Positions 2,957 through 22,600 are shown, counted from the stretch's first letter. The stretch: DNA of 37,274 nucleotides from Flavobacteriales bacterium (GCA_018057455.1 JAGPDT010000019.1:14383-51656), one strand, 5' to 3'. Made by a program: numbers and translations. Notes: generated by a model not told the origin, from the sequence alone.

Positions 2957-5900
2957 TCACCGCACCAGTGGCACGCGGAAGGTGCGTTGCACATCACCGC
3001 TGGCGACCCGCACGAACCAAATGCCGGCGTTCAGCGCATGGCCGTCCATGGTGATGCGCCCGGGCATCACCACGGCGCCACGGCCCAGGGTGTGGCGGCC
3101 CGTGGCATCATACACGTCCACGTCCACCGGTGCGTTCCCGAAGCCGTGCTCGATGATGAACTGTTCGGGCGTGGCCCACACGGCCAGGGTGTTGCCCGCT
3201 TCCGCGGCCCTTACCCCGGTGGTGGCATCCACTTCCAATTGTTGGGTGTAACTGTCCGAGCAATCGGCACTGGTGGCCGTCAGGGTCACGCTGTAGGTGC
3301 CGGGCTGGGCGTAGGCGTGCACCGGGGTGTGCTCGCTGCTGGCGGTGCCGTCGCCGAAGTCCCACGTGTAGCTGTCGGCCAACACGGAGTTGTTGTTGAA
3401 CTCCACAGGGGTGCCCACCGTGGTGCTGGCCAACAGGGCGAATTGCGCGAACGTGCCCTCACCGGCGGGGATCTCCGCGGCGATGGTGGTGGTGCAACCT
3501 GCTGCATCGGTGATGGTGGCGGATTGGCTGCCCGCAGGACCGTTGAGCACATGGCCCGTGGCACCGGTGCTCCAGAGCACATCGTATGGCGCCGTGCCTC
3601 CGTGGAGCAGCAGCTCAAGGTTACCGTCGGTGCTGTTGGGGCAGCTGGTGGCCGTTTGCAGCACTTCAATGTGGATGGTTTCCGGCGCGGTGATGGTGAA
3701 GTCGCTCACCAGTTCGCCACAGGCACCACCCGGGGTGATGCGTACTTGGTAGGTGCCCGCGGGGGCCGGGAAGATGCACACATCTCCTTCGCCGATCACG
3801 AAGCTGGAAAGAGGAATGCCAGCGGCACCCGCCCATGTGATCCCCAGTTGGCCTTGCGCTGCCACCACCGTGGCGCGGCCTTCCCCATCAGGGCACGGAG
3901 CGTTCTCCACATAGAGGGGAACAGGCTTGGTGCCGTTCAACAAGAAGCGCGGCTGGCCGGCATCATCCCCGGCGTTGATCGTGAAGGTGTAGCTGGCGCC
4001 ATCGGTGAGCGGGGTCACCGCACCGGTCTGCAGGTCGGTGAGGCTCAGGCAGGAGAGGGCGCGGATGCCCGCCATGCCCGCGGTGATGGTATAGGTGCCG
4101 GTAATGTCCACGTCCACCATCACGGGAACCTGAATGGCCGTGTCGTAGCTGCCGAAGAAGTCCAGGGCCAGCCGTTCACCGGTGCTGCTCAGGATCCCGA
4201 TCTGCGGCGCGCCCGCGGTCTTGAACGGCAACTTCAGGGCATCCACGCCATCAAGGGCCGGACTGCCTTGGGCGAAGATGACCATGGCTTCGTCGCTGTA
4301 TGTGTTCAGGTTGCTGGCGATGGTGAGGTTGAGCATGGGCAGCACCGGCTGAAGGCTGCCACCGAACGTACCGCCCAATGGCTCGGCCACCTTGGCGGAT
4401 TCATCCACGGTGGTGGTCAGGCTGGTACCGTCGGCCTTCATCCAGAAGCCTTGGCTGCTCTGCAGGATGCCGTTGAGACCGCCTTGGCCCACGCCGTTGG
4501 ACCACGCCTTGGTGGTGCCGGTGGCCGGGTCGAAGATCCAGTAGGCGTTCTGCACGTCACTTCCACGGCTGATGGCGGTGAAGTCGATGGGGCTGGGCAG
4601 CGGATTGCCCACCAGGTTCCAACCGTCGGCGGGCACGCTGCCCGAGGAAGTGAAGCTCAGGGGCAGGGTGAAGGGGCTCTGTGCGATGGTAGGCGCCCCG
4701 GTGAGGTCCACCGTGAAGGCGTTGGTGCCGGTGAAGGTGTCGCCGCACCAGGCCCGGAAGCCTTGGCCCGGGATCAGTGCCTGGGCCGTTGAGCTCACGC
4801 CCACTTCGCCGGAATCGGCACTGGGGAAGGTGTTGGTCTCATCATACCAGCGGATGCTGGGCCACAGGATGCCGCTGGCCGGGGGGTCATAGAAGTTGGG
4901 GTAGTGTGAACCGGGAAAACCCGCGGTGAAGAAGTCGTCCTTCCACTCATTCACGGTTTGCCCGGCCACGGGGCTGCCCAGCATGCGCCAATTGGTATGG
5001 CCTGCCGGGATGTACCGTTGCACCGTGAGGTTGCCCCCATAGCTGGCACCACTGGCTACGGGGCCCAACCGGCCGGTGCCCGTGGCGTTGCTCGTCAGGG
5101 CCACATTGCCCGTGCTGGCGTCGAAGAAGCCGTCCACCAATTGCAGGGTGCCACGGATGCCGATGGCTGCCTGGGCCGCCGTGCCCGCGGGCGTGTTCAC
5201 CGTCAGGTCCCAGAGGTCCATGTTGCCGCCAGCGTTCACCAGGGTGGTGGCCGCGCTGCCTGCCAGTGCCAGCGTGCTGTTGTCCGCACCGTTCACCAGG
5301 CCGCCTATGTTCACGTCATCGCCGTGAACCGTGCACGTGGTGCCGGCATTGAGCACCAATGTGCCTCCGCCCGCCACGCCCAGGTCCTTCACGTCCACAT
5401 CGGCCGTGGTGGTCACGGTATGGCCGTTCTGCACCACCATGTGCGTGAGTGCGCTGAAGGTGGCCGGCCCGGGGGTGCCCACGGGCTTCAGCGACCAGAT
5501 GGGGTCGCCCACATTCCCGTTGGACTGGCTGTAGTAGGTGATGTCCGCCGTGGTGCCCAGCACGATGATGTCGGCACCGGCGGCATCGCCCGGGCCACCA
5601 TGGCCCGTAGTGGAGTATTCAGCCTTGTAACCGTACAAACGCACCGTGAGCGGCGCAATGCGGTTGGCCACGGTGAAGTTGAAGGATCGCGTTTGGGTGG
5701 TGGTATTGTCCGTTATTTTGGCCACGCCGCCTTGGTTGGCAGTGAATCCATCGGCGCTGGTACGCACCACATAGCGCAAGGGGCCCCGGTTGTTGCGTTG
5801 CAATTTGAAGGTCACTTTGTTGATCGTGAACTGCTTGCCCGGTTGCGGAGTCAAAGTGAACTCCATGTAGTCGTTCATGTTCGGTACCGTCGCTGTGGTC

Positions 5901-6151
5901 CATCCTTTGGCGTTGAACCGGTCCGCATCCGCGAGGGCTTGGAGGCCCGGGCCTCTGCTGATGATGGAGCCGGTGAGCCCCGGGTCGTTGAAGTTGGAGG
6001 ACCAGGTGGCCTCATTGCCCACCGCACCGGCGAAATCGAAGGTGAGCACTTGTTGCGCATGGGCCTGCATGGTCCACAGGGCCAGCAGCCATCCGGCCAC
6101 CAAATGCAGGTGCACGCGGAAAGACGGGTTGAGCATAACGTTCTTCATCAT
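2957..6151 (-). CDS. Secreted T9SS type A sorting-domain protein with PKD domain
   Basis: A 1064-aa protein probably exported to the cell surface or medium by the type IX secretion system. I chose the start at 6151 (MMKNVML) because a signal peptide follows (hydrophobic core then AHAQQ). Upstream in-frame codons read as non-coding. The N-terminal third contains beta-rich segments (about 25-200, jelly-roll-like) and then repeats typical of Bacteroidota autotransporter-like surface proteins. A single SprB-like repeat lies near residue 825 (TSCPNSTDGN ... TDAAGC). A PKD domain follows near 915-975 (YTWDFGDGT, HAYAQPGTYSVTLTA). The last 80 residues form a type A sorting domain (VDVDVYDATGRH ... 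GIWFVRVASG). No catalytic domain is recognised, so an adhesive or structural role is only an inference. It stands alone on the minus strand, followed by a hairpin. Confidence 0.85.
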   Translation of the reverse strand: MMKNVMLNPSFRVHLHLVAGWLLALWTMQAHAQQVLTFDFAGAVGNEATWSSNFNDPGLTGSIISRGPGLQALADADRFNAKGWTTATVPNMNDYMEFTLTPQPGKQFTINKVTFKLQRNNRGPLRYVVRTSADGFTANQGGVAKITDNTTTQTRSFNFTVANRIAPLTVRLYGYKAEYSTTGHGGPGDAAGADIIVLGTTADITYYSQSNGNVGDPIWSLKPVGTPGPATFSALTHMVVQNGHTVTTTADVDVKDLGVAGGGTLVLNAGTTCTVHGDDVNIGGLVNGADNSTLALAGSAATTLVNAGGNMDLWDLTVNTPAGTAAQAAIGIRGTLQLVDGFFDASTGNVALTSNATGTGRLGPVASGASYGGNLTVQRYIPAGHTNWRMLGSPVAGQTVNEWKDDFFTAGFPGSHYPNFYDPPASGILWPSIRWYDETNTFPSADSGEVGVSSTAQALIPGQGFRAWCGDTFTGTNAFTVDLTGAPTIAQSPFTLPLSFTSSGSVPADGWNLVGNPLPSPIDFTAISRGSDVQNAYWIFDPATGTTKAWSNGVGQGGLNGILQSSQGFWMKADGTSLTTTVDESAKVAEPLGGTFGGSLQPVLPMLNLTIASNLNTYSDEAMVIFAQGSPALDGVDALKLPFKTAGAPQIGILSSTGERLALDFFGSYDTAIQVPVMVDVDITGTYTITAGMAGIRALSCLSLTDLQTGAVTPLTDGASYTFTINAGDDAGQPRFLLNGTKPVPLYVENAPCPDGEGRATVVAAQGQLGITWAGAAGIPLSSFVIGEGDVCIFPAPAGTYQVRITPGGACGELVSDFTITAPETIHIEVLQTATSCPNSTDGNLELLLHGGTAPYDVLWSTGATGHVLNGPAGSQSATITDAAGCTTTIAAEIPAGEGTFAQFALLASTTVGTPVEFNNNSVLADSYTWDFGDGTASSEHTPVHAYAQPGTYSVTLTATSADCSDSYTQQLEVDATTGVRAAEAGNTLAVWATPEQFIIEHGFGNAPVDVDVYDATGRHTLGRGAVVMPGRITMDGHALNAGIWFVRVASGDVQRTFRVPLVR

Positions 6152-6197
6152 GATGGAGGATTGACGGTGCCGCACGCCGACACCATGGAACAGGTGG

Positions 6198-6205
6198 TAA
6201 AAGTA
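6198..6205 (-). promoter_or_regulatory. Possible -7 box for the T9SS type A gene
   Basis: On the minus strand TACTTTTA matches the Bacteroidota -7 element TAnnTTTG at all but the last base, 46 nt before the start codon. No convincing -33 TTTG was found at the right spacing. Confidence 0.25.
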
Positions 6206-6308
6206 GGTCCATGGCGGAAACTTCGGGTGCAGCCGTTCCGGTGCACGGGTCCGAAGCGGGCAGGTAGGCATGAATGCGATGAAGGAACACCGGTCTCCAC
6301 CACCCAGC

Positions 6309-7230: not shown

Positions 7231-8223
7231 ATGCCCGTGTTCCGCCTGTTATTGTCCTTTTGCCTGCTGGTATCCGCATGCTTGCTTCAGGCGCAACCCG
7301 CCAACGATGATTGTTCCGAGGCCGTGGAACTCTGTGCCCGGCAACCGGTGGCCGGAAACAACACCGCGGCCATCAACACCATGCCCGCCTACTGCCAGCC
7401 CGGTGGCATGGCCCTCTGGTACTCCTTCACCACCAACAGCGTGGGCGGGCCGGTGAGCGTGTCCTTGGACCAGATCAACTGCCCCGACCTGGCCGGCATG
7501 GACAACGCCCTGAGCGTGGTACTGCTCAGCGGTGACGGCTCGTGCAACCCCGCCACCTTCCAAGTGGCCTCGGCCTGCCAATGGGACTCGCTCCCCTTCA
7601 CCGCCACCAGCAGCCAGCCCCTGTTGCCCAACACCCCGTACTGGGCCATGGTGGGGGGCATGCAGGACAACGGTGCAACCATTGCCGCCCAATGTGGGTT
7701 CAACATCTCCATTAGCGGACCCGGTATGGATGTGGTGAACGTGGTGTTCGATGCAGGACCCGATGTGGTCATTCCCGCCGGGGCCAGCACCCAGTTGCAG
7801 GCCACGGGCGGCACCACCTATGCATGGAGCCCCACCTCGGGCCTCAGCGGCATCGCCGTGGCCGACCCCGTGGCACAGCCCACGGAGACCACCGTATACA
7901 CGGTTTCCACGGTGATCAATGGCTGCACCTATGTGGACACCCTTACCGTGGAGGTCAAGCACCTGGTGGCCCCGGTGAACACCTTCACGCCCAATGGTGA
8001 CGGCATCAACGACACCTGGGAAGTACCGGAACTGGCCAACTACCCGCAGGCCGAGGTGAGCATCCATGACCGTTGGGGCCAGCGCGTGTACCACAGCATC
8101 GGCTACAAACAACCTTTTGATGGTGCCGGGCTCCCGGCGGCCACCTACTACTGGTACATCCAAGTGAATGACCTGGGCGGCAAGTCGGACCCCTACACCG
8201 GTTACGTCACCATTGTCCGCTGA
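7231..8223 (+). CDS. T9SS type B (gliding-motility C-terminal domain) surface protein, 330 aa
   Basis: A small secreted surface protein. I chose the ATG at 7231 because it starts a signal peptide (MPVFRLLLSFCLLVSACLLQ followed by AQPANDDC); codons further upstream overlap the promoter region. Residues about 26-175 form a Cys-containing domain beginning NDDCSEAVELC, a pattern common at the start of Bacteroidota extracellular proteins. An Ig-like or PKD-like segment follows (GGTTYAWSPTSGL). The C-terminal 85 residues are a type B T9SS sorting domain (NTFTPNGDGINDTWEV, HDRWGQRVYHS, GYVTIVR). It is the first gene of the island and its stop overlaps the next ATG by 1 nt. That makes it the likely cargo of the PorP/SprF protein at 8223. 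Confidence 0.88.
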   Translation: MPVFRLLLSFCLLVSACLLQAQPANDDCSEAVELCARQPVAGNNTAAINTMPAYCQPGGMALWYSFTTNSVGGPVSVSLDQINCPDLAGMDNALSVVLLSGDGSCNPATFQVASACQWDSLPFTATSSQPLLPNTPYWAMVGGMQDNGATIAAQCGFNISISGPGMDVVNVVFDAGPDVVIPAGASTQLQATGGTTYAWSPTSGLSGIAVADPVAQPTETTVYTVSTVINGCTYVDTLTVEVKHLVAPVNTFTPNGDGINDTWEVPELANYPQAEVSIHDRWGQRVYHSIGYKQPFDGAGLPAATYYWYIQVNDLGGKSDPYTGYVTIVR

Positions 8224-9161
8224 TGCGCTGCCTGGCCCTGCTCCTTTTCCCGCTTGCCGCCACCGGCCTGTTCGCGCAGCAGACCGCACAGTACACGCAG
8301 AACGTGTTCAACATGTTCGCCATCAACCCGGCGGTGGCCGGCAGCAAGGATTGCATTGATGTACGCTTGGGCTACCGCCAGCAGTGGACGGGCTTCCCGG
8401 GGGCGCCGGTCACCGGCTGGGCCACCATCAACAGCGTGATCAAGCCCAAGCGCAGGTCCTTTCAGGCCAACCGCCACGGCATCGGCCTCTTGGTGGAAGC
8501 CGACAACACCGGGCCTTTGGGCTACACCACCCTGAAACTGGCCTATGCCTACCACCTCCAGTTGAAGCGGGACGTCTTCCTGTCCTTCGGCTTTTACGCC
8601 GGGCTGCTTCAGGAAAAGCTCTCGCTGGGCGACGTGAATGCCATGGACAACAACGACCCGGCCCTGGCCAACAACGGCAGTGTCCTGGTGGTGCCGGACA
8701 TCACCCCCGGCATCTGGCTGTACGGCAAGTCTTCCTGGGCGGGCCTTTCCATCCAACAGTTGCTGGGCAACAAGCTCGAGGGCATCGGATTGGAAATGGC
8801 CCTTACGCGTCATTACATCGCCACGGCAGGCCACCGGTTCCGGGTCAACAAGGATTTCAGCGTGGTGCCCAATGGGCTCTTCAAGCTTTCCCCGGGATCG
8901 CCCATGGCCATGGACCTCAACGTGCTGTTGGAGTACAGGCGCAAGCTGGGCCTGGGTGTGAGCTACCGCAACCAGGACGCCGTGGCCTTCCTGGTGAAAG
9001 TGCCTTTCCTGAAGTACTTCTCCTTGGGGTATGGCTATGATATCACCACCAGCAAGCTCAGGGCCGGCGGTGCCAATACCCACGAAGTGATCCTGGGCAT
9101 CTATCCCTGTGTGCCTTTGGATCCCGATAAAGCGATCGTACGATGCCCCATCTTCGAATGA
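8223..9161 (+). CDS. PorP/SprF-family outer-membrane protein (module 1)
   Basis: A 312-aa protein with a signal peptide (MRCLALLLFPLAATGLFAQQ) and the typical PorP/SprF opening QYTQNVFNMFAINPAVAGS, followed by alternating amphipathic strands of an outer-membrane beta-barrel. In Flavobacterium johnsoniae, SprF is encoded next to the adhesin SprB and is needed for its secretion. Related proteins serve other type B cargos. The TGATG junction with the preceding cargo and the 4-nt ATGA overlap with the following adhesin indicate translational coupling. Whether it serves the 330-aa protein, the 3121-aa protein or both cannot be decided from sequence. Confidence 0.9.
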   Translation: MRCLALLLFPLAATGLFAQQTAQYTQNVFNMFAINPAVAGSKDCIDVRLGYRQQWTGFPGAPVTGWATINSVIKPKRRSFQANRHGIGLLVEADNTGPLGYTTLKLAYAYHLQLKRDVFLSFGFYAGLLQEKLSLGDVNAMDNNDPALANNGSVLVVPDITPGIWLYGKSSWAGLSIQQLLGNKLEGIGLEMALTRHYIATAGHRFRVNKDFSVVPNGLFKLSPGSPMAMDLNVLLEYRRKLGLGVSYRNQDAVAFLVKVPFLKYFSLGYGYDITTSKLRAGGANTHEVILGIYPCVPLDPDKAIVRCPIFE

Positions 9162-12100
9162 GCCCCTCCCGGCCCCGGCGATCCGCCATGCCCCTGCTTG
9201 CGGCCCTGATCTTCTGCCTGGCCCTCATCCCGCCTGTCCTGGCCCAACAGCAACGCTTCTGGGTGGGCGGTAGCGGACTGTGGAGCGATCCCGCGCACTG
9301 GGCGGCCACGGCCGGTGGTCCCGGGGGCGAAAGGGTGCCTGGCAACGGCGATGCCGTGGTCATCGCTCCGGCCAATGGCCCGGTGGTGGTGCAGTTGGAC
9401 CGGTCGTTCACCGTGGGCGACCTGCAGATCGATGCCCGCCGGGGCACCGTGCAAGTTGAGGGCGCGCAGGGCGGCTTGCGCATAGGCGGCGACCTGGTCC
9501 TCCATGGAAGCGTGGTGTGGAACAGCCCGGTGGCCGTGGAACTCTTCGCCGGAAAGCCCGTGTGCCACGTGGACCTGCGCGGCATACCGCTCGGCGGCGA
9601 TCTGCGCTTCAGCGGTAGGGGCACGTGGTCCATGCGCAGCGACCTGGTGCTTGGCGATCGGGCGGGCATCCACCTGGCCAATGCAACCCTGGTGACCAAT
9701 GGCAACATGGTGCGGGCCGGCCGGCTCATCATGGCCGGACACGGGGCCAAACTGATGGCCGGGGCTTCCGTGGTGCTGCTGGCTGAACCGTTCGTGCCAC
9801 CTGCGACAGACGCGGTGGAGCCCGGCACGTCGCGGTTGCTGGTCAATGGGGTACCTGCCCATTGGGGTTCCGGCCAACAGGCCCGGGAGAGCGGGCGGGG
9901 AGCCAACGTGTGCGCCACGGGCGTGGGCCAAACGCCCTTCATCATCGACGCGCAGTTGATGAGCAACTTCAATGGTTACGGCGTTTCGTGCCATGGTGTA
10001 TGCGACGGTTCCGTGCAAGTAACGGTCAGTGGTGGCGTGGGCCCCTTTACCTACAGTTGGGTGGGCGGACCGGCCAGCGCCACCTGGAACAACGTGTGCC
10101 CCGGCAACCAGATCGTGATCGTTACCGACCAGGGCCAAGGGGTGAGCTGTGCCGCCACCGTCCAGGTCACCGATCCCGCGTTGCTCAGCGTGATCTTCAC
10201 CGGGGTGCAAGCACCCACCTGCGCCGATGTCTGCAACGGCACCTCCTCGGTGTTCGCCGTGGGCGGTGTGTCCGGCTACAGTTATTCCTGGAACAACGGT
10301 GCCGGCACCGGAAGCAGCTTCAGCCAGTTGTGCGCCGTGGGCAACACCTTGCACGTCACCGACGCGAACAACTGTGCGTTCGACACCACGTTCAGCTTCC
10401 CGGTGCAGCCCATTCAGGCCAACCTCACGGTGGCGGACGCCCTGTGCGCCAATTCCTGCGATGGTTCGGCCCAAGTGGCGCCCACCGGTGGCACGGGCGC
10501 CTTTTCCTACAATTGGTCGCCGGGCAGCCCCACCGGGGACGGTACACCGGCTGTTAGCGGCCTGTGCGCGGGCAACTATACGGTGACCATCCAGGATGCC
10601 AACGGCTGCGATACCACCTTGCTGTTCCAGGTCACGGCGCCGCAACCGGTCGCGCCCAATGAATCACATACCGATGCCACCTGCGGGGGCAGTTGCGATG
10701 GCACGGCCACCGTGGCGCCCACCGGTGGTTCCGGCAACTATGCCTTCAGCTGGGCTCCGGCGCCGGGAGGTGGCGCCGCAACGGCCTCCGCCACCGGCCT
10801 GTGTGAAGGCGTGTACATGGTGACCATCACCGATGCCACCACGGGTTGCGACACCTCGGTCGCCATCACCATCGACGCGCCGGCGCAGATCATGCCCGTG
10901 CCCGCGGTCACCGACGCCACCTGCGCCACCAGCTGCGATGGAACGGCCAGCGCGCCCGCCACGGGCGGTACCGGTGCGTTGACCTACGCCTGGATGCCGG
11001 CCGTTACCGGGCAAGGTACCCCGAATGCCACGCTGCTCTGCCCGGGCACGTACAGCCTCACCATTGCCGATGCAGCCGGTTGTGATACCACCGTGCAGTT
11101 CGTGATCGGCGCGCCGCCGTCCCTTGATCCGGTGATCATGGCCACCGATGCAAGCTGCGCCGGCCAGTGCGACGGCACGGCCTCCGTCAACACCACCGGT
11201 GGTACGGGCACGCTGGCCTATGATTGGCAGCCCGGCAACCCCATGGGTGACGGCACCCCAACGGTGACAGGCCTGTGCGCCGGCACCTGGAGCGTGACGA
11301 TCACCGATGCCAACAATTGCGACTCCACCCTGCAGTTCACCATTGCTGAGCCGCTGCCGCTCCAAGTCACCCCGGCCCAAACGGATGTCACCTGCTCTTC
11401 CACCTGTGATGGAACGGCCACGGCCGCGGTGACCGGTGGTACGGGATCCTACAGTTATCTCTGGGCGCCGGCACCCGGTAGCGGCCAAGGCACCAACGCG
11501 GCCGGCGGCCTCTGTGCCGGCACATGGTCCCTCACCGTCACCGATGCGAACGGCTGCTCCATCGTGCAGAACTACACCATCTTACCGGCAGTTCCCTTCG
11601 ATATGGTGCTCACGCTGGGGCCTGCCAGCTGCCCGGATGTGTGTGATGGAACGGCACAAGCGGTGGTGGGCGGAGCCCTGCCGACGTACACGTATTTCTG
11701 GTCGCCGGCACCGGCCATGGGCCAAGGCACGCCCAATGCTGCCGGCTTGTGCCCGGGAGCAGGCAGCCTGTTAATCACCGATGCGTTGGGTTGCGATACC
11801 GTGATCAACTTCAACATCGCCGCACCCCCAGCGCTGGATGTGGCGTCCACGGTCACCGATGCCACCTGCCACGGCGCGTGTGATGGCTCCATCATCCTGG
11901 CCCCGAGCGGTGGCAATGGTGCCTATACCTATGTGTGGGCGCCGGCCTCAGCCGGTACCGGTGCCTCGGCTACCGGCCTCTGCGCCGGCAACTACCAAGT
12001 GCTGGTTTCAAGCGGGGCCTGCGATACGCTGCTGGACTTTGCCATCGGCCAGCCCCCCGCTCTTGATGTGGGCTTGTCCTCCACCGATGCATCCTGCGTG

Positions 12101-15100
12101 GATGCCTGCGACGGAACCGCCGTGGTCGCAGGCTCCCTGGCCGGCCTCTCGTTCAACTGGCAACCGGCACCGGCAGTGGGGCAGGGAACACCCAATGCCT
12201 CGGGGTTCTGCCCCGGGAACCATACGGTACTGGTGACCAACGCCGCCGGTTGTGATACGCTGATCGCCTTCGCCATCCTCGCCCCAACGCCCTTGGTGCC
12301 AACGGTGGTGGTGACCGATGCTTCCTGCGGGACAGCCTGCGATGGCTCCGCGGCAGTGACCGTGACCGGCGGAAGCGGGGGCGGTTATGGCTATGTATGG
12401 ACCCCTGCACCGGGAACCGGCCAGGGCACCGCCGCGGCCGGGCAGCTCTGCCCGGGCAACTGGTCGGTGACCATCACCGATGCCGCCGGTTGTGATACCA
12501 CCGTGTCGTTCACGGTCTCACGCCCCGCAGGCATTGATGTGGCCGCCGTGGTCACGCCGGCCGGCTGCGCGAACAGTTGCGACGGTTCCATCGCGGCCAC
12601 GGCCACCGGTGGCATGGGCACCTATACCTGGGCCTGGAGCCCGGAGCCCGGTAGCGGCCAAGGCACGGCTTCCGTGGGCGGGCTTTGCCCAGGAACTTGG
12701 GCAGTGACCGTGGCCGACCAAGCCGGTTGCGACACCACCCTTAGCTTCATCATTGATGCACCCGATGCGATCGATCCGCACGGCTCTTTCTCCAACGAAA
12801 CCTGCCATGGCCCCTGCGACGGCACCGCCACCGTGGCACCCACCGGAGGGGCTGGCAGCTACACCTATCTCTGGGCGCCGGCCCCGCCCGTGGGCCAAGG
12901 CACGGCCACGGCGGGCAACCTCTGCCCCGGCAATTGGTGCGTTACCGTCACCGATGCCGCCGGGTGCGATTCCACCTGGTGCTTCACCCTGCTGCCCAAT
13001 ACCCCGATCACCGCCAGCGTGGCCACCGTGGACGGCCAATGCTGGAATGCGTGCACCGGCATGGCCACGGCAACGGCAGCCGGTGGCGCCGGCGGGTACA
13101 CCTACCAATGGTCGCCAGCGCCCGGAGCGGGGCAGGGCACCGCCACGGTCTCCGGCCTGTGCCAAGGTCCGGGCACGGTGACCATAACCGATGCAGCGGG
13201 CTGCGACACCACGCTCGGCTTCATCATCTTCAAGTACCCGCCCATCCAGCCCAGCTTCACGGTGGTGCCGGAAACCTGTGGGGGGGGCTGCACTGGTGAA
13301 GCCGGTGCCTTTCCCGTGGGCGGAAACGGAACCTATACGTATGCATGGGCACCGGAACCCGGCGCGGGCCAAGGCACCCATGTGGCCACGGGCCTCTGCG
13401 CAGGGATCAACTACACGCTCACCATCACCGACGGACTCGGCTGTGACACCATCATTCCTTTTACCGTCCCGGCGTTCGTGCCCATCGAGCCCACCTTGGT
13501 GCTGGCCCCGGCTTCCTGTGCCGACACCTGTGACGGCTCCGCCACCATCACCGGCACCACCGGAGGGTCTGCGCCCTACACCTATTTCTGGGATCCGGCC
13601 CCGGCGAGCGGCCAAGGCACCAACGCGGCCACGGGCCTGTGCCCGGGCAACTACCAAGTAGTGGTCACCGACCAGGATGGCTGCGATTCCGTGATCACCT
13701 TCTCCATCCTGGCACCTGCGCCGATCGATCCACAGGCAACAGTGACACCCTTGGCCTGCGCAGGCCAATGCACCGGGGCGATCGACCTGCAGCCGCAAGG
13801 CGGGACGGGTGCGTTCAGCTACACCTGGTCACCGGCCCCGCCCAATGGGCAAGGCACCGCCCATGTAAGCCAGCTCTGTGCGGGCGATTGGACCGTGGTG
13901 ATCACGGACGCCAACGGGTGCGACTCCACGGTGACCTTCACGCTCCTGGAACCCGTGCCGTTGGCCGCATCGGCGGACGTGACCTCAAGCCATTGCGGAG
14001 CCTGCAACGGTGAGGTGCAGTTGCACCCCACGGGCGGAAGTGCTCCGTACACCTTCAATTGGGGGCCGCCGGTGAACACGTCCACCACCGACAGCCTGAT
14101 GACCGGCCTGTGTGCAGGTCTCTACGCCCTCACCATCACCGATGCGGCCGGGTGTTCCACCGCACTGGCCTTGGCCGTTGCCGATGTGGATGGTGAAGCA
14201 CTGACCGGGGCCAATGGCACCGCCAGTTGCCCGGGGATCTGCGACGGAGTGGTCTCCGTGGCCTACACCTGCGCCAACGGACCCTGCACCGTGGCCTGGA
14301 CCGACCTGCTGGGCAACGTACTGGCCCAGGATGTGGATACGCTCAGCGGCCTTTGTGCAGGCAGCTATCTGGTGGCCGTTACCAACGGCATCGGCTGCGT
14401 GAGCATCGATACGGTGACCGTGGCCGACCCCGTGCCGTTCCTTGCGGATATCAGCAGCACCGCGGCCAACTGTGCAGGCAGCTGCGACGGAATGGCCACC
14501 ATCGGGATCACCGGAGGGGTGGGGCCGTTCGACTTTACCTGGAGTCCCGCACCGGGTGCCGGACAAGGAACCTCCCAAGCCACCAGCCTTTGCCCGGGCA
14601 GCTACGACATCCTGGTGCATGACCAAGGCGGATGTGATGCCACCTTCAGCGTGCTCATTACCGCTCCGGCACCACTGCTGGTGACGGCTGTGGTGGCCAA
14701 CATCACCTGCGCCGGCCAGTGCGACGGAAGCATCAGCCTGGATGTGCAAGGGGGTACCGGGCCCCATACGTACACATGGACGCCTGCACCGCCCGCGGGG
14801 CAAGGTTCCTCCGTGATCAGCAACCTCTGCCCGGGGAATTTCCAAGTGGAGGTTGTGGACGCAAACGGTTGCGATACCACGCTCCACTTCAACATCATCG
14901 AGCCTGCACCCTTGGTGCTCAGCGGATCGGCCACCATGAGCCACTGTGCCCTGTGCGACGGTACGGCCGCCGTCCAGGTGAGCGGTGGCACCGGTGCCCA
15001 CACCACCCAATGGACCTTGGCCGGTACCCCGGTAGGCACCGGTGACGCCTTGACCGGCCTGTGTGCGGGGATCTACTCCGCTGGCGTTACGGATGCCCAA

Positions 15101-18100
15101 GGCTGCGCTGCTTCCATGGTGCTGGTGGTACCCGACGACAACGCCGAACAAGTACAGGCCGTGGACGGCCAGACGCTTTGCGCCAGTTCCTGTGATGGCG
15201 GGGTGGGCGTGGCCTACACCTGTGTGGATGCACCGTGCACCATAACGTGGTACGACGTGCTGGGCAACCAACTGGCGCAAGGGCAGGACACCCTGGCCGG
15301 CCTTTGCACGGGAACCTATTTCGTAACGGTCCTGAATGCTGCCGGATGCACCAGCGTGGATACCGCAACGGTAGTGCCTTCGCATGTGATCATGCCCAAC
15401 TTGGCCACTTCCGCAGCGAGCTGCAACGGGCTTTGCGACGCCACGGCCACCGTAGGTCCGGTGGGTGGCTTACCGCCTTACACCTACGTGTGGACCCCGG
15501 AACCGGCCAGCGGCCAGAATACCGCGATGGCCACCGGACTGTGTGCCGGCACTTACCAAGTGGCCATTGCCGATTCCACCGGATGTGATACCGTGGTGAA
15601 CGTGCTGATCACCGCCCCGCAACCGGTTGCGGTGGATGCACAAGTGGCCCAGGTCTCGTGCCATGGGGCGTGTGATGCCACCATCGTGCTGTCGCCCACG
15701 GGCGGAAACGGATTCTACTCCTTTACATGGTCCCCAGTGCCGCCCAACGGCCAAGGCAGCAATGGCGCCTTCAACCTCTGCCCGGGCACATGGACCGTGA
15801 CGGTCGCGGACATCAGCGGTTGCGATACCACCTTGTCGTTCACCATCACCGAGCCCGATTCCTTGCAGGCCGCCACTACATCCACGCTGAGCAATTGCAA
15901 TGTGTGCGACGGGACGGCCTCGGTGGTGCCCACCGGTGGTACGCTTCCCTACGTGATCTCCTGGTCGTTGAACGGGGGGGCGGTGGGTGCCGACAGTACG
16001 GTCACCGGGTTGTGCGCCGGACTGTATTTGGTGCAAGTGACGGATGCCCATGGTTGTGTGGTGGAGCTTCCCGTGCCCGTTACCGATGCGGGTGCGGAAC
16101 AATTGGCCACGACCAACTTCATGCTGGACTGCCCTGCGGATTGTGATGGCATGGTGGATGTGTCATTCAACTGCTCGGTTCCGGCCTGCACCATCCAATG
16201 GTTCGATGCCACCGGAATGGACCTGAACGTACCGGGACCCACCTTGGCCAACCTGTGTGCAGGCCTGTACTTTGTCCAAGTGTCCAATGGCGCTGGCTGC
16301 ACGGCCATCGACACGGCCCGCGTGCTCGCACCGGAGCCCATCCTGGCCAACCTTGGCACCACCGCGGTAACCTGTGCCGATGCCTGCGATGGTACGGCCA
16401 TCGTGGCGCCCACAGGCGGCACCGGCGGCTACACCTATGTATGGACCGAGGGCGCCGATACCCTGTCCACCGGCACGCAGGTGAGCGGGCTGTGCGCGGG
16501 AACCTATTCCGTGGAGATCACCGACCTGGGGGGCTGTTCCATCACGCAGGGCGTGCTGATCACGGCCCCGCAGCCGATCACGGCCACCGTTGCCGCGCAG
16601 GACATTTCCTGCAATGGAGCCTGTGACGGCAGCATCATCGTGCTGGGGCTGGGCGGCACCGGAACGCTCAGTTACCAATGGACCCCCGAACCGCCGGCTG
16701 GCCAGCAAGGCTCCGGCTCATTGTCCGGGCTGTGTGCCGGGGCTTGGACCGTGGCCATCAGCGACGCCAACGGGTGCGATACCACCTTCTCGTTCACCCT
16801 CGCCGAACCAGCGCTGCTCACGGTGGACCTCACCCACACGGACAACGTATGCTTTGATGATTGCCTGGCCATGGCCCAGGTGGCCATGTCCGGAGGAACA
16901 GCACCATTCTCCATCCTCTGGACCACGGCGGGCGGTGGTGTGATCGACCAGGACACGGTGGAGGTATCCGGGCTGTGCGGCGGGGCCTACCAAGTGCTGG
17001 TCACCGATTCCAACGGCTGCAGCCTCACCACGGCCTTCACCATCAGCGCCGGTGCGCCCATTGAAGCCAACCTGAGCGTGCTGGGCGAAAGTTGCAACGG
17101 ACCCTGTGACGGCACCGCGTTGGTGGCGCCGGCCGGCGGGACCGGCGTGGGTTACACCTACCTATGGCAACCGGGCAACCCCGTGGGCCAAGGCACCGAT
17201 CAGGTCAACGGACTCTGCCCCGGAAACTGGAGCGTGACCCTCACCGATGATGCGGGTTGCGACACCACCTATGCGTTCGTCATCGACCCCTTCCAGCCGA
17301 TCACGCCCACGGCCACCGTGCAGGACATTGCTTGCCATGGGGATTGCAACGGCAGCATCTCCTTGGCCACCACCGGAGGGGTTGGGGCCCTCACTTACCT
17401 GTGGACCCCCGAACCGGCCAGCGGCCAAGGCACCCCAGCCATCGGCGGGCTTTGTCCGGGTGATTGGACCGTGGTGATCACCGATGCGGCCGGTTGCGAT
17501 ACCACCGTTACCCATGGCCTGGCCGAACCACCGGTCCTGGTGGTCACCACCGACGGGGTGACCGACGCCAGCTGCACCAGCGCCAGTGATGGTGCCATCG
17601 CCATTTCCATAGCGGGTGGAACACCCGGGTACGCGATCGCATGGAGCGGCCCCAACGGGTATCAATCCTCGGAAGAGGACATCAGCGGAGTGTTGCCCGG
17701 CACCTATGTGGTAACGGTCACGGACACCAACAACTGCATGGTATCAGCCCCGATTGATGTGGCCGCGTTGGTGTCGGTGGTCGCGGATGCCGGAGCCGAC
17801 CTGGTGGAATGCTCCGGGGTGGCCATCACCTTGGATGGATCCGCCAGCCAAGGGAACGGCACCTTCCAATGGACCGACGGGCAAGGAGATCCGCTGGGCA
17901 ACGATACCCTGCTGAGCACCGGGATCCTGGCGGATGGCACGCACACCTTCATCCTCACCCTTACCGACGGTCCGTGCAGCGATGCCGATACCGTGGTGGT
18001 CACGGTGTTGCCATTGCCCGTTGCCGATGCCGGTGAGGACCGCACCATCTATGTGCAAGGCACCACCGCGCTGGGCGGTTCCCCGGCCGGTCCGCCGGGA

Positions 18101-18523
18101 AGCACATTCGCTTGGCTGCCGGACAGCCTGCTCAACAATGCAAGCCTTCCCAATCCCATGGCCACCGTGGGCACCACCACTTGGTTCCAGTTGACCGTGG
18201 TGGCCCCCGACGGATGCTCCAGCGTGGATTCCGTGCTGGTCACCGTGGTGCCCGAGGTGAAGGTGCCCAGTGGCTTCAGCCCCAACGGCGACGGCCACAA
18301 TGACACGTGGGTCCTTGGTTTCGCCGGGCTCTTCCCCGATCTGGAGGTACGCGTGTTCAGCCGATGGGGCGAACCGTTGTTCCATAGCGTGGGCTACAGG
18401 GTGCCTTGGGACGGGAAGTATGACGGGAACCCTGTGCCGATGGGAACGTATTACTACGTCGTGGACCTCCATGACGACCGGTTCCCCGAGGCGATCACCG
18501 GTCCGCTTACCGTGATCCGCTAA
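9158..18523 (+). CDS. Giant SprB-repeat T9SS adhesin, 3121 aa
   Basis: A predicted cell-surface adhesin or gliding protein. I prefer the ATG at 9158 (ATGA overlap with the previous stop) to 9143. It gives a signal peptide with a basic start (MSPSRPRRSAMP), a hydrophobic core and LAQQQ. Residues about 28-270 contain the WVGGSGLWSDPAHW motif and a beta-helix-like region. From about residue 275 to 2865 come 33 SprB-type repeats of roughly 75 aa. Each has C-x3-C-DG, GGTGxYxYxW, GLCxGxY/WxVTITDAxGC. Then come two Ig/PKD-like segments (VADAGADLVEC, VADAGEDRTIY). The last ~85 residues are a type B sorting domain (SGFSPNGDGHNDTW, SRWGEPLF, GPLTVIR). Four cysteines per repeat and a 951-bp higher-order period are unusual. 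A motility or attachment role is inferred from SprB. Confidence 0.92.
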   Translation: MSPSRPRRSAMPLLAALIFCLALIPPVLAQQQRFWVGGSGLWSDPAHWAATAGGPGGERVPGNGDAVVIAPANGPVVVQLDRSFTVGDLQIDARRGTVQVEGAQGGLRIGGDLVLHGSVVWNSPVAVELFAGKPVCHVDLRGIPLGGDLRFSGRGTWSMRSDLVLGDRAGIHLANATLVTNGNMVRAGRLIMAGHGAKLMAGASVVLLAEPFVPPATDAVEPGTSRLLVNGVPAHWGSGQQARESGRGANVCATGVGQTPFIIDAQLMSNFNGYGVSCHGVCDGSVQVTVSGGVGPFTYSWVGGPASATWNNVCPGNQIVIVTDQGQGVSCAATVQVTDPALLSVIFTGVQAPTCADVCNGTSSVFAVGGVSGYSYSWNNGAGTGSSFSQLCAVGNTLHVTDANNCAFDTTFSFPVQPIQANLTVADALCANSCDGSAQVAPTGGTGAFSYNWSPGSPTGDGTPAVSGLCAGNYTVTIQDANGCDTTLLFQVTAPQPVAPNESHTDATCGGSCDGTATVAPTGGSGNYAFSWAPAPGGGAATASATGLCEGVYMVTITDATTGCDTSVAITIDAPAQIMPVPAVTDATCATSCDGTASAPATGGTGALTYAWMPAVTGQGTPNATLLCPGTYSLTIADAAGCDTTVQFVIGAPPSLDPVIMATDASCAGQCDGTASVNTTGGTGTLAYDWQPGNPMGDGTPTVTGLCAGTWSVTITDANNCDSTLQFTIAEPLPLQVTPAQTDVTCSSTCDGTATAAVTGGTGSYSYLWAPAPGSGQGTNAAGGLCAGTWSLTVTDANGCSIVQNYTILPAVPFDMVLTLGPASCPDVCDGTAQAVVGGALPTYTYFWSPAPAMGQGTPNAAGLCPGAGSLLITDALGCDTVINFNIAAPPALDVASTVTDATCHGACDGSIILAPSGGNGAYTYVWAPASAGTGASATGLCAGNYQVLVSSGACDTLLDFAIGQPPALDVGLSSTDASCVDACDGTAVVAGSLAGLSFNWQPAPAVGQGTPNASGFCPGNHTVLVTNAAGCDTLIAFAILAPTPLVPTVVVTDASCGTACDGSAAVTVTGGSGGGYGYVWTPAPGTGQGTAAAGQLCPGNWSVTITDAAGCDTTVSFTVSRPAGIDVAAVVTPAGCANSCDGSIAATATGGMGTYTWAWSPEPGSGQGTASVGGLCPGTWAVTVADQAGCDTTLSFIIDAPDAIDPHGSFSNETCHGPCDGTATVAPTGGAGSYTYLWAPAPPVGQGTATAGNLCPGNWCVTVTDAAGCDSTWCFTLLPNTPITASVATVDGQCWNACTGMATATAAGGAGGYTYQWSPAPGAGQGTATVSGLCQGPGTVTITDAAGCDTTLGFIIFKYPPIQPSFTVVPETCGGGCTGEAGAFPVGGNGTYTYAWAPEPGAGQGTHVATGLCAGINYTLTITDGLGCDTIIPFTVPAFVPIEPTLVLAPASCADTCDGSATITGTTGGSAPYTYFWDPAPASGQGTNAATGLCPGNYQVVVTDQDGCDSVITFSILAPAPIDPQATVTPLACAGQCTGAIDLQPQGGTGAFSYTWSPAPPNGQGTAHVSQLCAGDWTVVITDANGCDSTVTFTLLEPVPLAASADVTSSHCGACNGEVQLHPTGGSAPYTFNWGPPVNTSTTDSLMTGLCAGLYALTITDAAGCSTALALAVADVDGEALTGANGTASCPGICDGVVSVAYTCANGPCTVAWTDLLGNVLAQDVDTLSGLCAGSYLVAVTNGIGCVSIDTVTVADPVPFLADISSTAANCAGSCDGMATIGITGGVGPFDFTWSPAPGAGQGTSQATSLCPGSYDILVHDQGGCDATFSVLITAPAPLLVTAVVANITCAGQCDGSISLDVQGGTGPHTYTWTPAPPAGQGSSVISNLCPGNFQVEVVDANGCDTTLHFNIIEPAPLVLSGSATMSHCALCDGTAAVQVSGGTGAHTTQWTLAGTPVGTGDALTGLCAGIYSAGVTDAQGCAASMVLVVPDDNAEQVQAVDGQTLCASSCDGGVGVAYTCVDAPCTITWYDVLGNQLAQGQDTLAGLCTGTYFVTVLNAAGCTSVDTATVVPSHVIMPNLATSAASCNGLCDATATVGPVGGLPPYTYVWTPEPASGQNTAMATGLCAGTYQVAIADSTGCDTVVNVLITAPQPVAVDAQVAQVSCHGACDATIVLSPTGGNGFYSFTWSPVPPNGQGSNGAFNLCPGTWTVTVADISGCDTTLSFTITEPDSLQAATTSTLSNCNVCDGTASVVPTGGTLPYVISWSLNGGAVGADSTVTGLCAGLYLVQVTDAHGCVVELPVPVTDAGAEQLATTNFMLDCPADCDGMVDVSFNCSVPACTIQWFDATGMDLNVPGPTLANLCAGLYFVQVSNGAGCTAIDTARVLAPEPILANLGTTAVTCADACDGTAIVAPTGGTGGYTYVWTEGADTLSTGTQVSGLCAGTYSVEITDLGGCSITQGVLITAPQPITATVAAQDISCNGACDGSIIVLGLGGTGTLSYQWTPEPPAGQQGSGSLSGLCAGAWTVAISDANGCDTTFSFTLAEPALLTVDLTHTDNVCFDDCLAMAQVAMSGGTAPFSILWTTAGGGVIDQDTVEVSGLCGGAYQVLVTDSNGCSLTTAFTISAGAPIEANLSVLGESCNGPCDGTALVAPAGGTGVGYTYLWQPGNPVGQGTDQVNGLCPGNWSVTLTDDAGCDTTYAFVIDPFQPITPTATVQDIACHGDCNGSISLATTGGVGALTYLWTPEPASGQGTPAIGGLCPGDWTVVITDAAGCDTTVTHGLAEPPVLVVTTDGVTDASCTSASDGAIAISIAGGTPGYAIAWSGPNGYQSSEEDISGVLPGTYVVTVTDTNNCMVSAPIDVAALVSVVADAGADLVECSGVAITLDGSASQGNGTFQWTDGQGDPLGNDTLLSTGILADGTHTFILTLTDGPCSDADTVVVTVLPLPVADAGEDRTIYVQGTTALGGSPAGPPGSTFAWLPDSLLNNASLPNPMATVGTTTWFQLTVVAPDGCSSVDSVLVTVVPEVKVPSGFSPNGDGHNDTWVLGFAGLFPDLEVRVFSRWGEPLFHSVGYRVPWDGKYDGNPVPMGTYYYVVDLHDDRFPEAITGPLTVIR
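9985..17765 (+). repeat. Array of 33 diverged SprB-type repeats
   Basis: Counted by the CxxxCDG/GGxGxYxYxW core, the array has 33 units of about 222-230 bp. The units are clearly diverged at DNA level, so it is an old expansion and not a recent identical tandem. Units 18, 22 and 26 have a shortened C-x2-C core. Units 19, 23 and 27 carry an extra cysteine pair (for example AYTCANGPCTVAW). Unit 33 has lost both of the extra cysteines that the other 32 have. Confidence 0.85.
13757..16609 (+). repeat. Three tandem copies of a 951-bp (317-aa) four-repeat superunit
   Basis: Homologous landmark codons recur at exactly 951 bp. The first Cys of units 17, 21, 25 and 29 falls at 13757, 14708, 15659 and 16610. 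The residue before the first Cys of units 18, 22 and 26 falls at 13991, 14942 and 15893. The VAYTC-type landmark of units 19, 23 and 27 falls at 14261, 15212 and 16163. The next corresponding interval is 723 bp (to 17333), so the following superunit lacks about one repeat (228 bp). Confidence 0.85.
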
Positions 18524-18526
18524 CCG

Positions 18527-19459
18527 ATGGCCCCCATGCGACATCTCCTCCTCCTCGTGTTCGCCGGATCATGTGCGCAGGCCATGCACGCGCAGCAACT
18601 GCCGCAGCTGAGCCAATACAACAGCTTTGATTACCTGTACGACCCGGCGGTGGCGGGCAGTCGCCCGTGGTTCGAGCTCCGCAGTGCCCACCGCAACCAA
18701 TGGGTGGGCATACAGGACGCTCCGCGCACGTTCATGCTCAGCGCCACCACCCCGTTGGCCGCCAACATGGGCTTGGGCGGATACATCTTCACCGATCATG
18801 TGGGGCCTTCACGCCGTACCGGCGTGCAATTCAGCTACGCCTATCACCTGCGGATCAACGAGGAGATCAGGCTGGGCATGGGCCTGTCGTTCGGCTTGCT
18901 CCAGTTCCTCATGGACGGGTCGAAGATCCAGTTCCACGACCCCGATGAACCCCTGATGGATGACCAGGTGCGCGGTGAGCTCATGCCCGATGCCACCTTT
19001 GGTGCGTACCTCTACCATGAGAACTGGTGGTTCGGCGCCACCGCCCCGCAGCTCCTGCGCAACAAGGTCCGGTTCTTCGAGGTGCATGACCCGACCAACA
19101 GCTTGCTGGCGGCCCACTATTATGCCATGGGCGGCTACCGGTTCGCGCTTGGGGATGACATCAAGCTGGAACCGTCCTTCTTGCTCAAGTACGTCAGCCC
19201 GGTACCGCCCAAGGTGGACCTCACCGCAACGGTGCGCTATCGCGACATGGTATGGCTGGGCGCCACCTACCGCACGGAAGATGCCCTCAGTTTCATGGTG
19301 GGCTACTGGCTCAAGCAGACCTTTCAATTCGGATACAGCTACGACCTGACCACAACAGCGTTGAAAGGATACACCTCCGGAACCCATGAAGTGATGCTGG
19401 GCATCACCTTCGGGAAGGATCCCGGAAAGGCCCAACAGCAGCCCCCAACGGCACAATAA
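18527..19459 (+). CDS. PorP/SprF-family outer-membrane protein (module 2)
   Basis: A 310-aa protein starting 3 nt after the stop of the giant adhesin. An alternative start at 18536 (MRHLLLLVFAG) removes three residues and leaves a better signal peptide. After the signal come LPQLSQYNSFDYLYDPAVAGS, the PorP/SprF signature, and repeated amphipathic strands ending in FQFGYSYDLTTTALKGYTSG, HEVMLGI. It is the most likely dedicated secretion or anchoring partner of the 3121-aa adhesin, by analogy with SprF and SprB. A Gln/Pro-rich tail (QQQPPTAQ) follows the last strand. Confidence 0.9.
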   Translation: MAPMRHLLLLVFAGSCAQAMHAQQLPQLSQYNSFDYLYDPAVAGSRPWFELRSAHRNQWVGIQDAPRTFMLSATTPLAANMGLGGYIFTDHVGPSRRTGVQFSYAYHLRINEEIRLGMGLSFGLLQFLMDGSKIQFHDPDEPLMDDQVRGELMPDATFGAYLYHENWWFGATAPQLLRNKVRFFEVHDPTNSLLAAHYYAMGGYRFALGDDIKLEPSFLLKYVSPVPPKVDLTATVRYRDMVWLGATYRTEDALSFMVGYWLKQTFQFGYSYDLTTTALKGYTSGTHEVMLGITFGKDPGKAQQQPPTAQ

Positions 19460-19545
19460 AAGAGCAAATAGCACTTGCCTTGGTCCGAGCGGTGGGCGCA
19501 TTGGTCGGCCCGGTGCTGCTCTTTGCCGAAGTGCCCATGCCCCAT

Positions 19546-19564
19546 GGGCCTTCCGGAAGGGCCC
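19546..19564 (+). terminator. Weak hairpin after module 2
   Basis: GGGCCTT (19546-19552) pairs with AAGG-G-CCC (19557-19564) with one bulged G around a CCGG loop. A T-rich stretch (TATTTTAT) follows 13 nt later. It lies in the 177-bp gap before the second giant gene and may attenuate read-through. Confidence 0.25.
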
Positions 19565-19581
19565 GGCCCAAGCGGGTATTT

Positions 19582-19589
19582 TATCTTGG
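19582..19589 (+). promoter_or_regulatory. Possible -7-like box of the second giant adhesin gene
   Basis: TATCTTGG differs from TAnnTTTG at one base and ends 47 nt before the chosen start at 19637. The 177-bp gap here is the only sizeable break in the otherwise overlapping or abutting island, which makes an internal promoter reasonable. No -33 TTTG was seen. Confidence 0.3.
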
Positions 19590-19636
19590 TCGCTGATTTG
19601 ATCAAGCGCGGAGGGATTCACCTGCACAATTCGGTG

Positions 19637-22600
19637 ATGAGGAGATCGGTGGCCATGAACCTGTTGCTTGTTGGTTTGGCCTTGGCCTTGCCGAACGTTG
19701 TGCGACCGGCGGTGGAAGGTGCCTTGCACACGGCCACAACAGGGCTCGGACCCGGGGCGGATGGCACCGCCACGCTGTGTGCCAACGGTCCCATGGTATC
19801 CTTGTTCGATCACTTGGGCGGTACGCCCGACCCAGGTGGTACTTGGAGCGGGCCGGCGCCCCACCCCGGGTTTTTCGATCCGGCATCCGATGTGCCGGGT
19901 GCATTCACCTATACCGTCGCCGGCCCGCCGGTGGCCAGCGCCACCGTTACGGTGGTCGTGCAGGCTCCGGCGGACGCGGGAATCGCAGCCTCGTTCTCCA
20001 CGTGCAGCTCCTCGCCGGCGGTGGACCTCTTCACCCTCTTGGGAGGCACGCCCGATCCGGGTGGCGGCTGGACCTTGGGCGGCAATCCCGTATCCAACTT
20101 GTTCTCCCCGGGCTCCTCATCACCGGGCACCTACACGTACACCGTGAATGGCGTTCCGCCTTGCACCAATGCCACAGCGGACGTGGTGGTGTCCGTGGTG
20201 GCCGCCCCCAATGCGGGCGGTGACAGGAGCCTCACCGTGTGCAGCAGCGATCCACCGTTCAGCATGCGTGCACAGTTGCCGGGTGCTCCCGACTTGGGCG
20301 GAACCTGGACACCCGGTGGATCGGACACCTTCACGCCCGGCCTGTCCACCCCCGGAGTGTACACGTACGTGGTGCCGGGCACGGCACCGTGCGCCAACGA
20401 CACGGCCCGGCTGACCACCACGGTGCGCGAGGCTCCTGTTGCCGGCAGCAACCGGTCCGTGGAGGTTTGCAGCGATGCGGCCGTCTTCAATCTGCGGGAT
20501 TCATTGGGCGGCAGCCCCGATGCCGGTGGCACCTGGGCCGGCCCCTTGGGCGCCCATTCAGGCCTGTTCCAACCGGCCACCGACCCGGGCGGGGCATACG
20601 TGTACAGCGTGCCGGGCCAAGCGCCCTGCCTTGCGGCCACGGCAACGGTGACCGTGGTGTTGAGGCCGGCGCCGGACGCCGGCACCAGCGTGAACCTCGT
20701 GAAATGCTCCAATGAGGCGCCCTTCAACCTGCTGTCGCAGTTGGGTGGCACGCCGGACGCGGGCGGCGCGTGGACCGGCCCGGGGGGCAGCCCTTTTCCC
20801 TCCGGCACATTCACCCCGGGCACCAACACCCCGGGCTTGTACACCTATACCGTGCCCGGCCTGGCACCCTGCGGGCCGGCTACTGCTACCATCAACATTT
20901 CCTTGGTCGCCGCCCCCAAGGCCGGTATCAATGGCAGCCACACCGTGTGCAGCAGTGAGGGCGCCTTCGCCCTGTTCAGCCATTTGGGCGGATCACCGGA
21001 TGTGGGAGGGGCGTGGACCGGCCCGACCGGTCCGGTGCCTTCGGGATCTTTCATTCCGGGCACGGACCTGCCCGGGGTGTACACCTATCTGGTGTCCGGC
21101 ACGGCGCCTTGCGCAAACGCCACGGCCACAGTGACCGTGACGGTGGTGAACGCGGCCAACGCGGGCAGCAACGGATCGGTCACGTTGTGCAGTTCCAGCC
21201 CCGATGAAGACTTGTTCGCACACTTGGGCGGCACACCCGATCCAGGAGGGCAGTGGGCCATTCCACCGCCGGGGAGCGGCAATCTGTCCGGCGGTCTCTA
21301 CCAGCCCTCCAATCCAGCACATCCGGCCGGAGGCTACAGCTACACGGTCAACGGCAGCGCACCCTGCCCGGATGTTTCAGCCCTGGTGCAAGTGGTGGAG
21401 AACAAGGCGCCGGAAGCGGGTGTGGATGGCTCCACCATCCTGTGTAGCACCAACCCCCCGTTCAGTATGGCCACCTTGCTTGGCGGGGTGCCTGATGTGG
21501 GCGGGGTCTGGTTGAATTCTTTGAACGCGCCGGTGGCCTCCACCTTCACACCGGGCACCACGCCCCCGGGTATTTTCCGCTATGTGGCCTCCGGCCAAGC
21601 ACCTTGCCTGAACGATACGGCCCAACTCACTGTGCAGGTGAACACCGCGCCGAAAGCAGGGACCAACGGTGCTGAGGTGGTGTGCAGCGACGGTGCCCCC
21701 GTGGACCTCTTTGCGGAGCTGGGCGGCACACCGCAATCGGGTGGTACTTGGACCGACCCGGACAACATTGCACACAGCGGCACCTTCGTTCCCGGCCCTG
21801 GTGCATTGGAAGGTGGGTATACCTACTTGGTGACCGGCATCAGCCCCTGTGCGGATGTCAGCGCCGTGGTCAGCGTTACGCAGCACCTCCGGCCCATGGC
21901 CGGAACAAGTGCGTCGTTGGGCCTTTGCAGCACCGATCCCGCGGTGAACCTCTTTGATCACCTGGGCGGCACCCCGGATGCCGGCGGTACTTGGACCGGA
22001 CCGGGCGGTGCCGCCAGCAACGGGGTGTTCATACCCGGCCTGGCGGGCTCCTATGCATACCAATACAAAGTGGTCGGAACGGTGCCCTGTGCGCCGGACA
22101 GCGCCACGGTCTCCATCCTCGTTTCGCAGGCACCAAATGCCGGCAACAGCGGAACCCTCACCATCTGTACCGGCCAAACTACCGTGGACCTCTTCGATGG
22201 GCTGGACGGCGCACCGGACCTCAATGGCACTTGGACCGAGATAACGGTGACCGGCCGGTTGGGCGGCCACACCTTCAATCCGGGCATCCCCACGCAATTG
22301 CCTCCGGGCAACTATGACTTCCGTTATGTGGTGCCGCCCAGCGGCACGTGCAATGGCGACACGGCCACGGTCCGGGTCACCATCGTGGCCGTGTTGAACG
22401 CCGGGAATGATGGCACTCTTTCCGTGTGCGACACGGAAACCCAAGTGGACCTTTTCAGCGCATTGGAAGACAACCCGCAGCCCGGCGGCAACTGGCAGGA
22501 CTTGAACGCCACCGGGCAGGTGACCGGCAAGTTCTTCAACGCCCAAGGCGCGGGCCCGGGTACCTACCAGTTGAAGTACAAATTGACCGGCGCACTCGGT

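Follow-up and report, generated by a model that had tools for sequence, protein, structure and literature searches.

The DNA analyzed here is a window of 37,274 nucleotides from a Flavobacteriales bacterium (GCA_018057455.1 JAGPDT010000019.1:14383-51656; positions are counted from its first letter), and it carries the gene for a giant adhesin of 3126 amino acids (aa) with 33 SprB repeat units. The distribution of cysteines (Cys) in these units and in their relatives points to a covalently laced fibre. Of the four Cys found in most units, C1 and C4, which are conserved throughout the SprB family, would not be bonded within a module; instead, C1 of module n would bond C4 of module n+1, stapling every junction, and an additional pair, C2 and C3, would bond inside modules 1-32. 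On the evidence of sequence, a probability of about 0.87 is given to this arrangement. It is also likely that the conserved Cys pair of Bacteroidota SprB adhesins in general forms this staple, their fibres being laced ropes, with the four-Cys form adding a lock inside the modules and the lineage of the window holding its array at 33 position-specific units.

The adhesin is a member of the known SprB-repeat kind with a type B sorting signal of the type IX secretion system (T9SS). It matches PF13573 (SprB repeat) at 497 bits (E 3.8e-153, 20 stretches; gathering cut-off 28), all 33 units (75–81 aa each) have C1 near the unit start and C4 in a DxxGC motif, a CHU_C domain is found at residues 3040-3112 (E 2.5e-18), and two PorP/SprF partner genes flank the adhesin gene. 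In units 1-32, C1 and C2 are spaced as CxxxC (CxxC in units 18, 22 and 26) and C3 lies in LCxG. Unit 33 (TDASCTSASDG ... GVLPG ... TNNC) lacks C2 and C3, in agreement with an earlier note on this DNA that had described an extra Cys pair in all units but the last. The note's figure of about 128 repeat Cys is correct for the first 32 units (32 x 4 = 128), and including unit 33 and the local pairs described below gives 138 of the 144 Cys in the protein. The units share a mean pairwise identity of just 37%, which argues that selection, rather than recent copying, has preserved the Cys pattern. Units 18/22/26 and 19/23/27 match each other best, revealing a four-unit super-repeat present in three copies (Table 1). 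Elsewhere in the window, a single canonical SprB unit is encoded on the minus strand (open reading frame (ORF) 2957-6271), where the Pfam SprB score of 19.8 bits is below the cut-off of 28.

The pairing of C2 with C3 was examined in a main sample of 2231 distinct units, collected with a profile made from units of both types. These came from some 140 loci in relatives, in genomes from across the phylum and in 71 named contigs; the pattern by which those contigs were picked was confined to the surroundings of C4, and hence did not select for C2 or C3. Both Cys are present in 1222 units and both absent in 974, so that 2196 of the 2231 are concordant and 35 are split; homologues routinely carrying one extra Cys alone, an outcome that would speak against pairing, were thus not seen. 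An alternative partner is visible for 29 of the 35 splits: 18 belong to three related proteins whose units have a new loop Cys, and 11 are SCxxCYNG units, each the last SprB unit of a small protein. Two groups of units considered as exceptions were rejected. Those of L135-137 have C3 without C2, and each has a new loop Cys; the SCxxCYNG units have C1 and C2 without C3, and are last SprB units with no SprB module after C1, which in these units probably bonds C2. In a unit tree made without the tested columns about nine phylogenetically independent contrasts had branch support, 8.8 of them concordant on average and none opposed, and among held-out units the phi coefficient for C2 and C3 was 0.986. 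The four-Cys form is not peculiar to the window adhesin, since in the sample 55 ORFs contain it in mixed arrays and 10 in pure ones, and a second giant in the same genome (L021, G000:C73; 3149-aa ORF) has two-Cys units only (32/32). The concordance of C2 and C3, together with this all-two-Cys paralogue array, makes the pattern more than chance, and the two residues, gained and lost together, are almost certainly joined by an intra-unit disulphide.

The starting assumption, also implied by the earlier note, was that this would be a second disulphide beside a canonical intra-unit C1-C4 bond. Pairing of C2 with C3 inside the unit stands, but the C1-C4 bond was dropped, because C1 and C4 show no covariation within a unit (phi -0.01 in the main 2231-unit table) while C1(n) and C4(n+1) do covary. 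In the first set, 2051 junctions have both C1(n) and C4(n+1), four have neither and none is split. This was repeated with 80 further genome regions added (240 loci in all) and with the four Cys columns of the profile hidden Markov model masked, since units having those Cys would otherwise be favored. Both residues are then present at 1946 junctions and neither at 13 (9 loci), with eight apparent splits (Fisher p 5e-27). On inspection, the eight reflect a linker Cys before unit n+1 (four), a Cys displaced in the alignment (three) and a masked base (one). Within single units of the masked set, 55 have only C1, 51 only C4 and three neither (phi 0.03). The reverse control, C4(n) with C1(n+1), gave a phi of 0.01, and in the skip control, C1(n) with C4(n+2), there were 0 junctions without both. 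A held-out set of 70 loci provided 661 junctions, of which four were apparent splits, each explained by a linker or displaced Cys. Two intra-unit bonds per module (C1-C4 and C2-C3) would agree with the joint presence of C1 and C4 in most units, as expected of any two conserved residues, and C2-C3 is intra-unit in either case; however, given the independent loss of C1 and C4 within units, their joint loss across junctions, and the features of the array ends described next, this alternative is improbable.

If C4 bonds the previous module, the first module of an array needs no C4 and the last no C1. Among first units near the protein start in the main set, 11 of 14 lack C4, and the remaining three are one with a Cys at the mature N-terminus, one in an upstream-incomplete frame with a Cys nearby, and that of L191, which is a true exception (see below). 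C1 is missing from 11 of the 15 last units before a sorting domain; of the other four, three are followed by a tail Cys, and for one the sequence continues into masked bases. Held-out first units near the protein start that keep C4 were considered as exceptions and rejected, as in all of them a Cys closely follows the signal peptide or closely precedes the unit. Held-out units without C1 are mostly last SprB units, and the last unit of the 3149-aa paralogue array also lacks C1, as predicted by the end rule. In the window adhesin, a Cys at exactly -26 (Cys257) is conserved in 22 of 22 proteins compared, the window included, as is the lone C4-type Cys of domain 35 (Cys3025; 22/22), while Cys141 is found in two. 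The inter-unit scheme provides partners for both Cys257 and Cys3025, whereas intra-unit bonds would leave both as orphans and would not account for first units without C4 or last units without C1. A family of small proteins (L022-L025, L031, L034, L041, L043 and L053) has a first SprB unit without C4 and an SCxxC last unit, and is apparently a minimal two-module stapled unit.

Residue couplings between adjacent units indicate the same junction. Among 4624 inter-unit couplings, C1(n)-C4(n+1) ranks first and the reverse pair ranks 1190, and other top couplings run between the AB and EF loops of one unit and the BC and FG loops of the next, where an immunoglobulin (Ig) topology makes C1(n) and C4(n+1) neighbors. 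Covariation of adjacent units would also be compatible with C1 meeting C4 of another chain lying in register, giving a cross-linked bundle or sheet of neighboring molecules and not one laced chain. This is scarcely credible, as the end rules and the loop couplings between the C-terminal pole of unit n and the N-terminal pole of unit n+1 are explained by chain neighbors without further assumptions. It is also highly unlikely that the Cys are unbonded, either binding metal or lying reduced in the core and covarying through packing. Such a state would suit the Chitinophagales-like arrays of L139, L140 and L145, where many units have a third Cys, at unit residue 54 (GTYTC), that lacks an evident partner. 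However, the protein is exported (CHU_C), and the all-or-none pairing, the compensating linker Cys where C1 is lost and the nearby Cys matching the C1 of last units (SCxxCYNG) are typical of disulphides.

Several points weigh against stapling by C1(n) and C4(n+1). The first unit of L191 has C4, and no Cys lies between its signal peptide and the unit. Loss of C1 or C4 is rare, and the 13 junctions lacking both come from nine loci, some of which are related (L180/L184/L191 and L139/L140/L145), leaving perhaps eight loss events. No held-out junction lacks both residues, so the absence of exceptions was repeated there and the co-loss itself was not. Mean-field coupling in the four-Cys subset linked all conserved residues, so this subset was not used in arguing for bonds, and what coupling can tell here comes from the mixed and two-Cys sets alone. 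Finally, covariation is evidence of coupling and not of chemistry.

The predicted fold is an Ig-like beta-sandwich. AlphaFold2 models of four units of the window adhesin (predicted local distance difference test (pLDDT) 94.4, predicted template modelling score (pTM) 0.70) and three units of the two-Cys paralogue (pLDDT 97.5, pTM 0.81) were obtained; the strands are ordered A-B-C-E-F-G, with B-E, C-F and F-G pairing, and Ig domains are matched in the PDB. Proximity of residues was taken from coupling registers computed on two-Cys units after removal of the C1, C2, C3 and C4 columns. The best register is an antiparallel B-E pairing (i+j=60), which places residue 12 (C2) opposite residue 48 (C3), and further registers were found for F-G (120) and C-F (85). 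The F-G register has residues 53 and 67 facing each other across the strands, and these are the positions of an extra Cys pair in unit 13. By these two registers, the extra Cys are located where bonds can form. The unit 13 pair was overlooked in the earlier note, which had correctly listed local pairs in units 19, 23 and 27. Across the sample, the unit 13-type columns have both Cys in 17 units, the first only in five and the second only in none, and for the type seen in units 19, 23 and 27, both Cys are present in 98 of 98 units having either.

The array is strongly conserved among orthologues. Exactly 33 units are present in 19 of 21, the remaining two having 37 and 34, and for the 19 orthologues the best match of window units is at the same array position in 396 of 627 cases (19 expected). 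The surplus of four in the 37-unit array (L096) equals one four-unit super-repeat in size. A two-Cys last unit following about 32 four-Cys units recurs across the orthologues, so that unit 33, previously taken as an independent paired loss, is part of a conserved layout that goes back to one historical event. That 33 position-specific modules are frozen in most orthologues suggests that fibre length is itself under selection.

The adhesin would be of the SprB kind exported by the T9SS, and is probably held at the surface by the adjacent PorP/SprF proteins. It would form a string of Ig-like modules in which C2-C3 of units 1-32 ties strands B and E together at the C-terminal pole of the module, and the Cys common to all SprB repeats, if oxidized, would form a chain of staples that begins with Cys257 bonded to unit 1 C4, continues with unit 1 C1 bonded to unit 2 C4 and, repeated down the array, ends with the C1 of domain 34 bonded to Cys3025, leaving no orphan at either array end. 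Domains 34 and 35 are PKD-like in our reading of their sequences. With each residue counted as a link of 0.36 nm and each disulphide as a shortcut, the maximum extension between Cys257 and Cys3025 is estimated at 996 nm for the unbonded chain, falling to 354 nm if the bonds lie within units and to 163 nm if they join units as proposed. The folded length of 35 domains, at an assumed 3.5–4.5 nm each, is about 122–158 nm, and since 163 nm is close to this, a laced fibre would hardly stretch even if its modules unfolded. The C2-C3 bond would leave the stretch limit unchanged and keep strands B and E pinned beside each staple. Such a rope would be suited to load transfer between the substrate and a cell-surface complex, whether moving or anchored. 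What the data show is the covariation, the rules at the array ends, the contacts derived from couplings, the predicted Ig-like fold and the conservation among orthologues; the oxidation state, the bonds themselves, the mechanics and the adhesive role are inferred.

SprB-type adhesins bear force in the gliding of Bacteroidota, and how such long chains of small domains take load is not described in the searchable literature. With the staples in place, the fibre would neither unravel nor lengthen much, covalent bonds would bear the force, and folding would have to set the inter-domain bonds in order. A sequence rule for annotating arrays would also follow, the first module being without C4 and the last without C1.

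Inter-domain disulphides are found in Siglec-type receptors, where a Cys of one Ig domain is bonded to the next Ig domain, but this occurs at one junction of a short receptor, whereas in the window adhesin a repeated ladder would extend over some 35 domains. With gliding adhesins such as SprB of Flavobacterium johnsoniae, the window adhesin shares PF13573 matches above cut-off, the type B C-terminal domain and adjacent PorP/SprF partner genes; it is unlike them in having C2-C3 in 32 of 33 units. The closest solved relative by sequence is grappling hook protein A (GhpA) of Aureispira sp. CCB-QB1 (E 7.5e-44 and 1.3e-48; cryo-EM structures, PDB 9FLP, 9FLS, 9FLU, 9FLV, 9FLW, 9FLX, 9FLY and 9G8B). 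It is also among the top fold matches, and its repeats are Ig-like and show C1-like and C4-like Cys in the aligned stretches. GhpA differs in its length (5898 aa) and in having no C2-C3 pair in the aligned stretches. It builds a multimeric hook that has a neck and a base and serves in ixotrophy, and the likeness to this grappling hook is one of repeat homology only. Inter-repeat disulphides in SprB-type arrays are not described in the searchable literature, a scope that did not include the GhpA paper, so an earlier description is possible. In the same adhesin system, the SprF-GldK disulphide is a covalent, load-bearing bond, but joins the carrier to the periplasmic track, while the proposed staples join adhesin modules (PMC12635249).

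Table 1. Features of the adhesin locus, with positions in the window.
Feature	Position	Strand	Basis
PorP/SprF family outer-membrane partner, upstream	8223..9161	+	PF11751 E 1.4e-66, NCBIfam TIGR03519
Giant T9SS type B adhesin, 3126 aa	9143..18523	+	ORF; Pfam SprB and CHU_C matches
Cys257, 26 residues upstream of unit 1 C1; proposed partner of unit 1 C4	9911..9913	+	
SprB units 1-32, C1-C4 in each	9968..17551	+	Repeat alignment, covariation
Unit 13 extra pair, C1266/C1280 (NWC1266...STWC1280; unit residues 53/67)	12938..12982	+	
Four-unit super-repeat x3 (units 18-21, 22-25, 26-29; 317-318 aa each)	13973..16828	+	Best unit-unit matches, constant spacing
Unit 19 extra local pair, C1710/C1715	14270..14287	+	
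Unit 23 extra local pair, C2027/C2032	15221..15238	+	
Unit 27 extra local pair, C2344/C2349	16172..16189	+	
SprB unit 33, C1 and C4 only	17552..17788	+	Alignment; two-Cys last unit kept in orthologues
Domain 34 (PKD-like), C1-like C2890 and C4-like C2945	17810..17977	+	
Domain 35, lone C4-like Cys3025; proposed partner C2890	18215..18217	+	In 22/22 proteins compared
CHU_C / T9SS type B sorting domain	18260..18478	+	Pfam CHU_C
PorP/SprF family outer-membrane partner, downstream	18527..19459	+	PF11751 E 3.3e-77

The order CHU_C protein, PorP/SprF, array, PorP/SprF is conserved in 22 of 23 orthologous loci with complete arrays (33–37 units); at the other (L124), the CHU_C protein alone was not seen and the rest of the gene order is retained. 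T9SS type B proteins bind PorP-like partners, and SprF of F. johnsoniae binds SprB (PMC9143113), so the flanking PorP/SprF proteins may fairly be taken to anchor the adhesin at the surface. Two Cys lie in the C-terminal tail of the upstream PorP/SprF protein (YPCVPLDPDKAIVRC) and none in that of the downstream one; in F. johnsoniae, the twin-Cys tail of SprF bonds GldK (PMC12635249). Beyond the downstream PorP/SprF gene are genes for a 2710-aa protein with other repeats, a third PorP/SprF protein and an OmpA-family protein. The 2710-aa protein (19475-27607, plus strand) is also of T9SS type B; its repeats, of another kind, are about 80 aa long and have two Cys each. The first of them carries the C1-type Cys only (C102) and a lone Cys (C2612) lies near the end of the protein, an arrangement staggered in the way of the SprB array.

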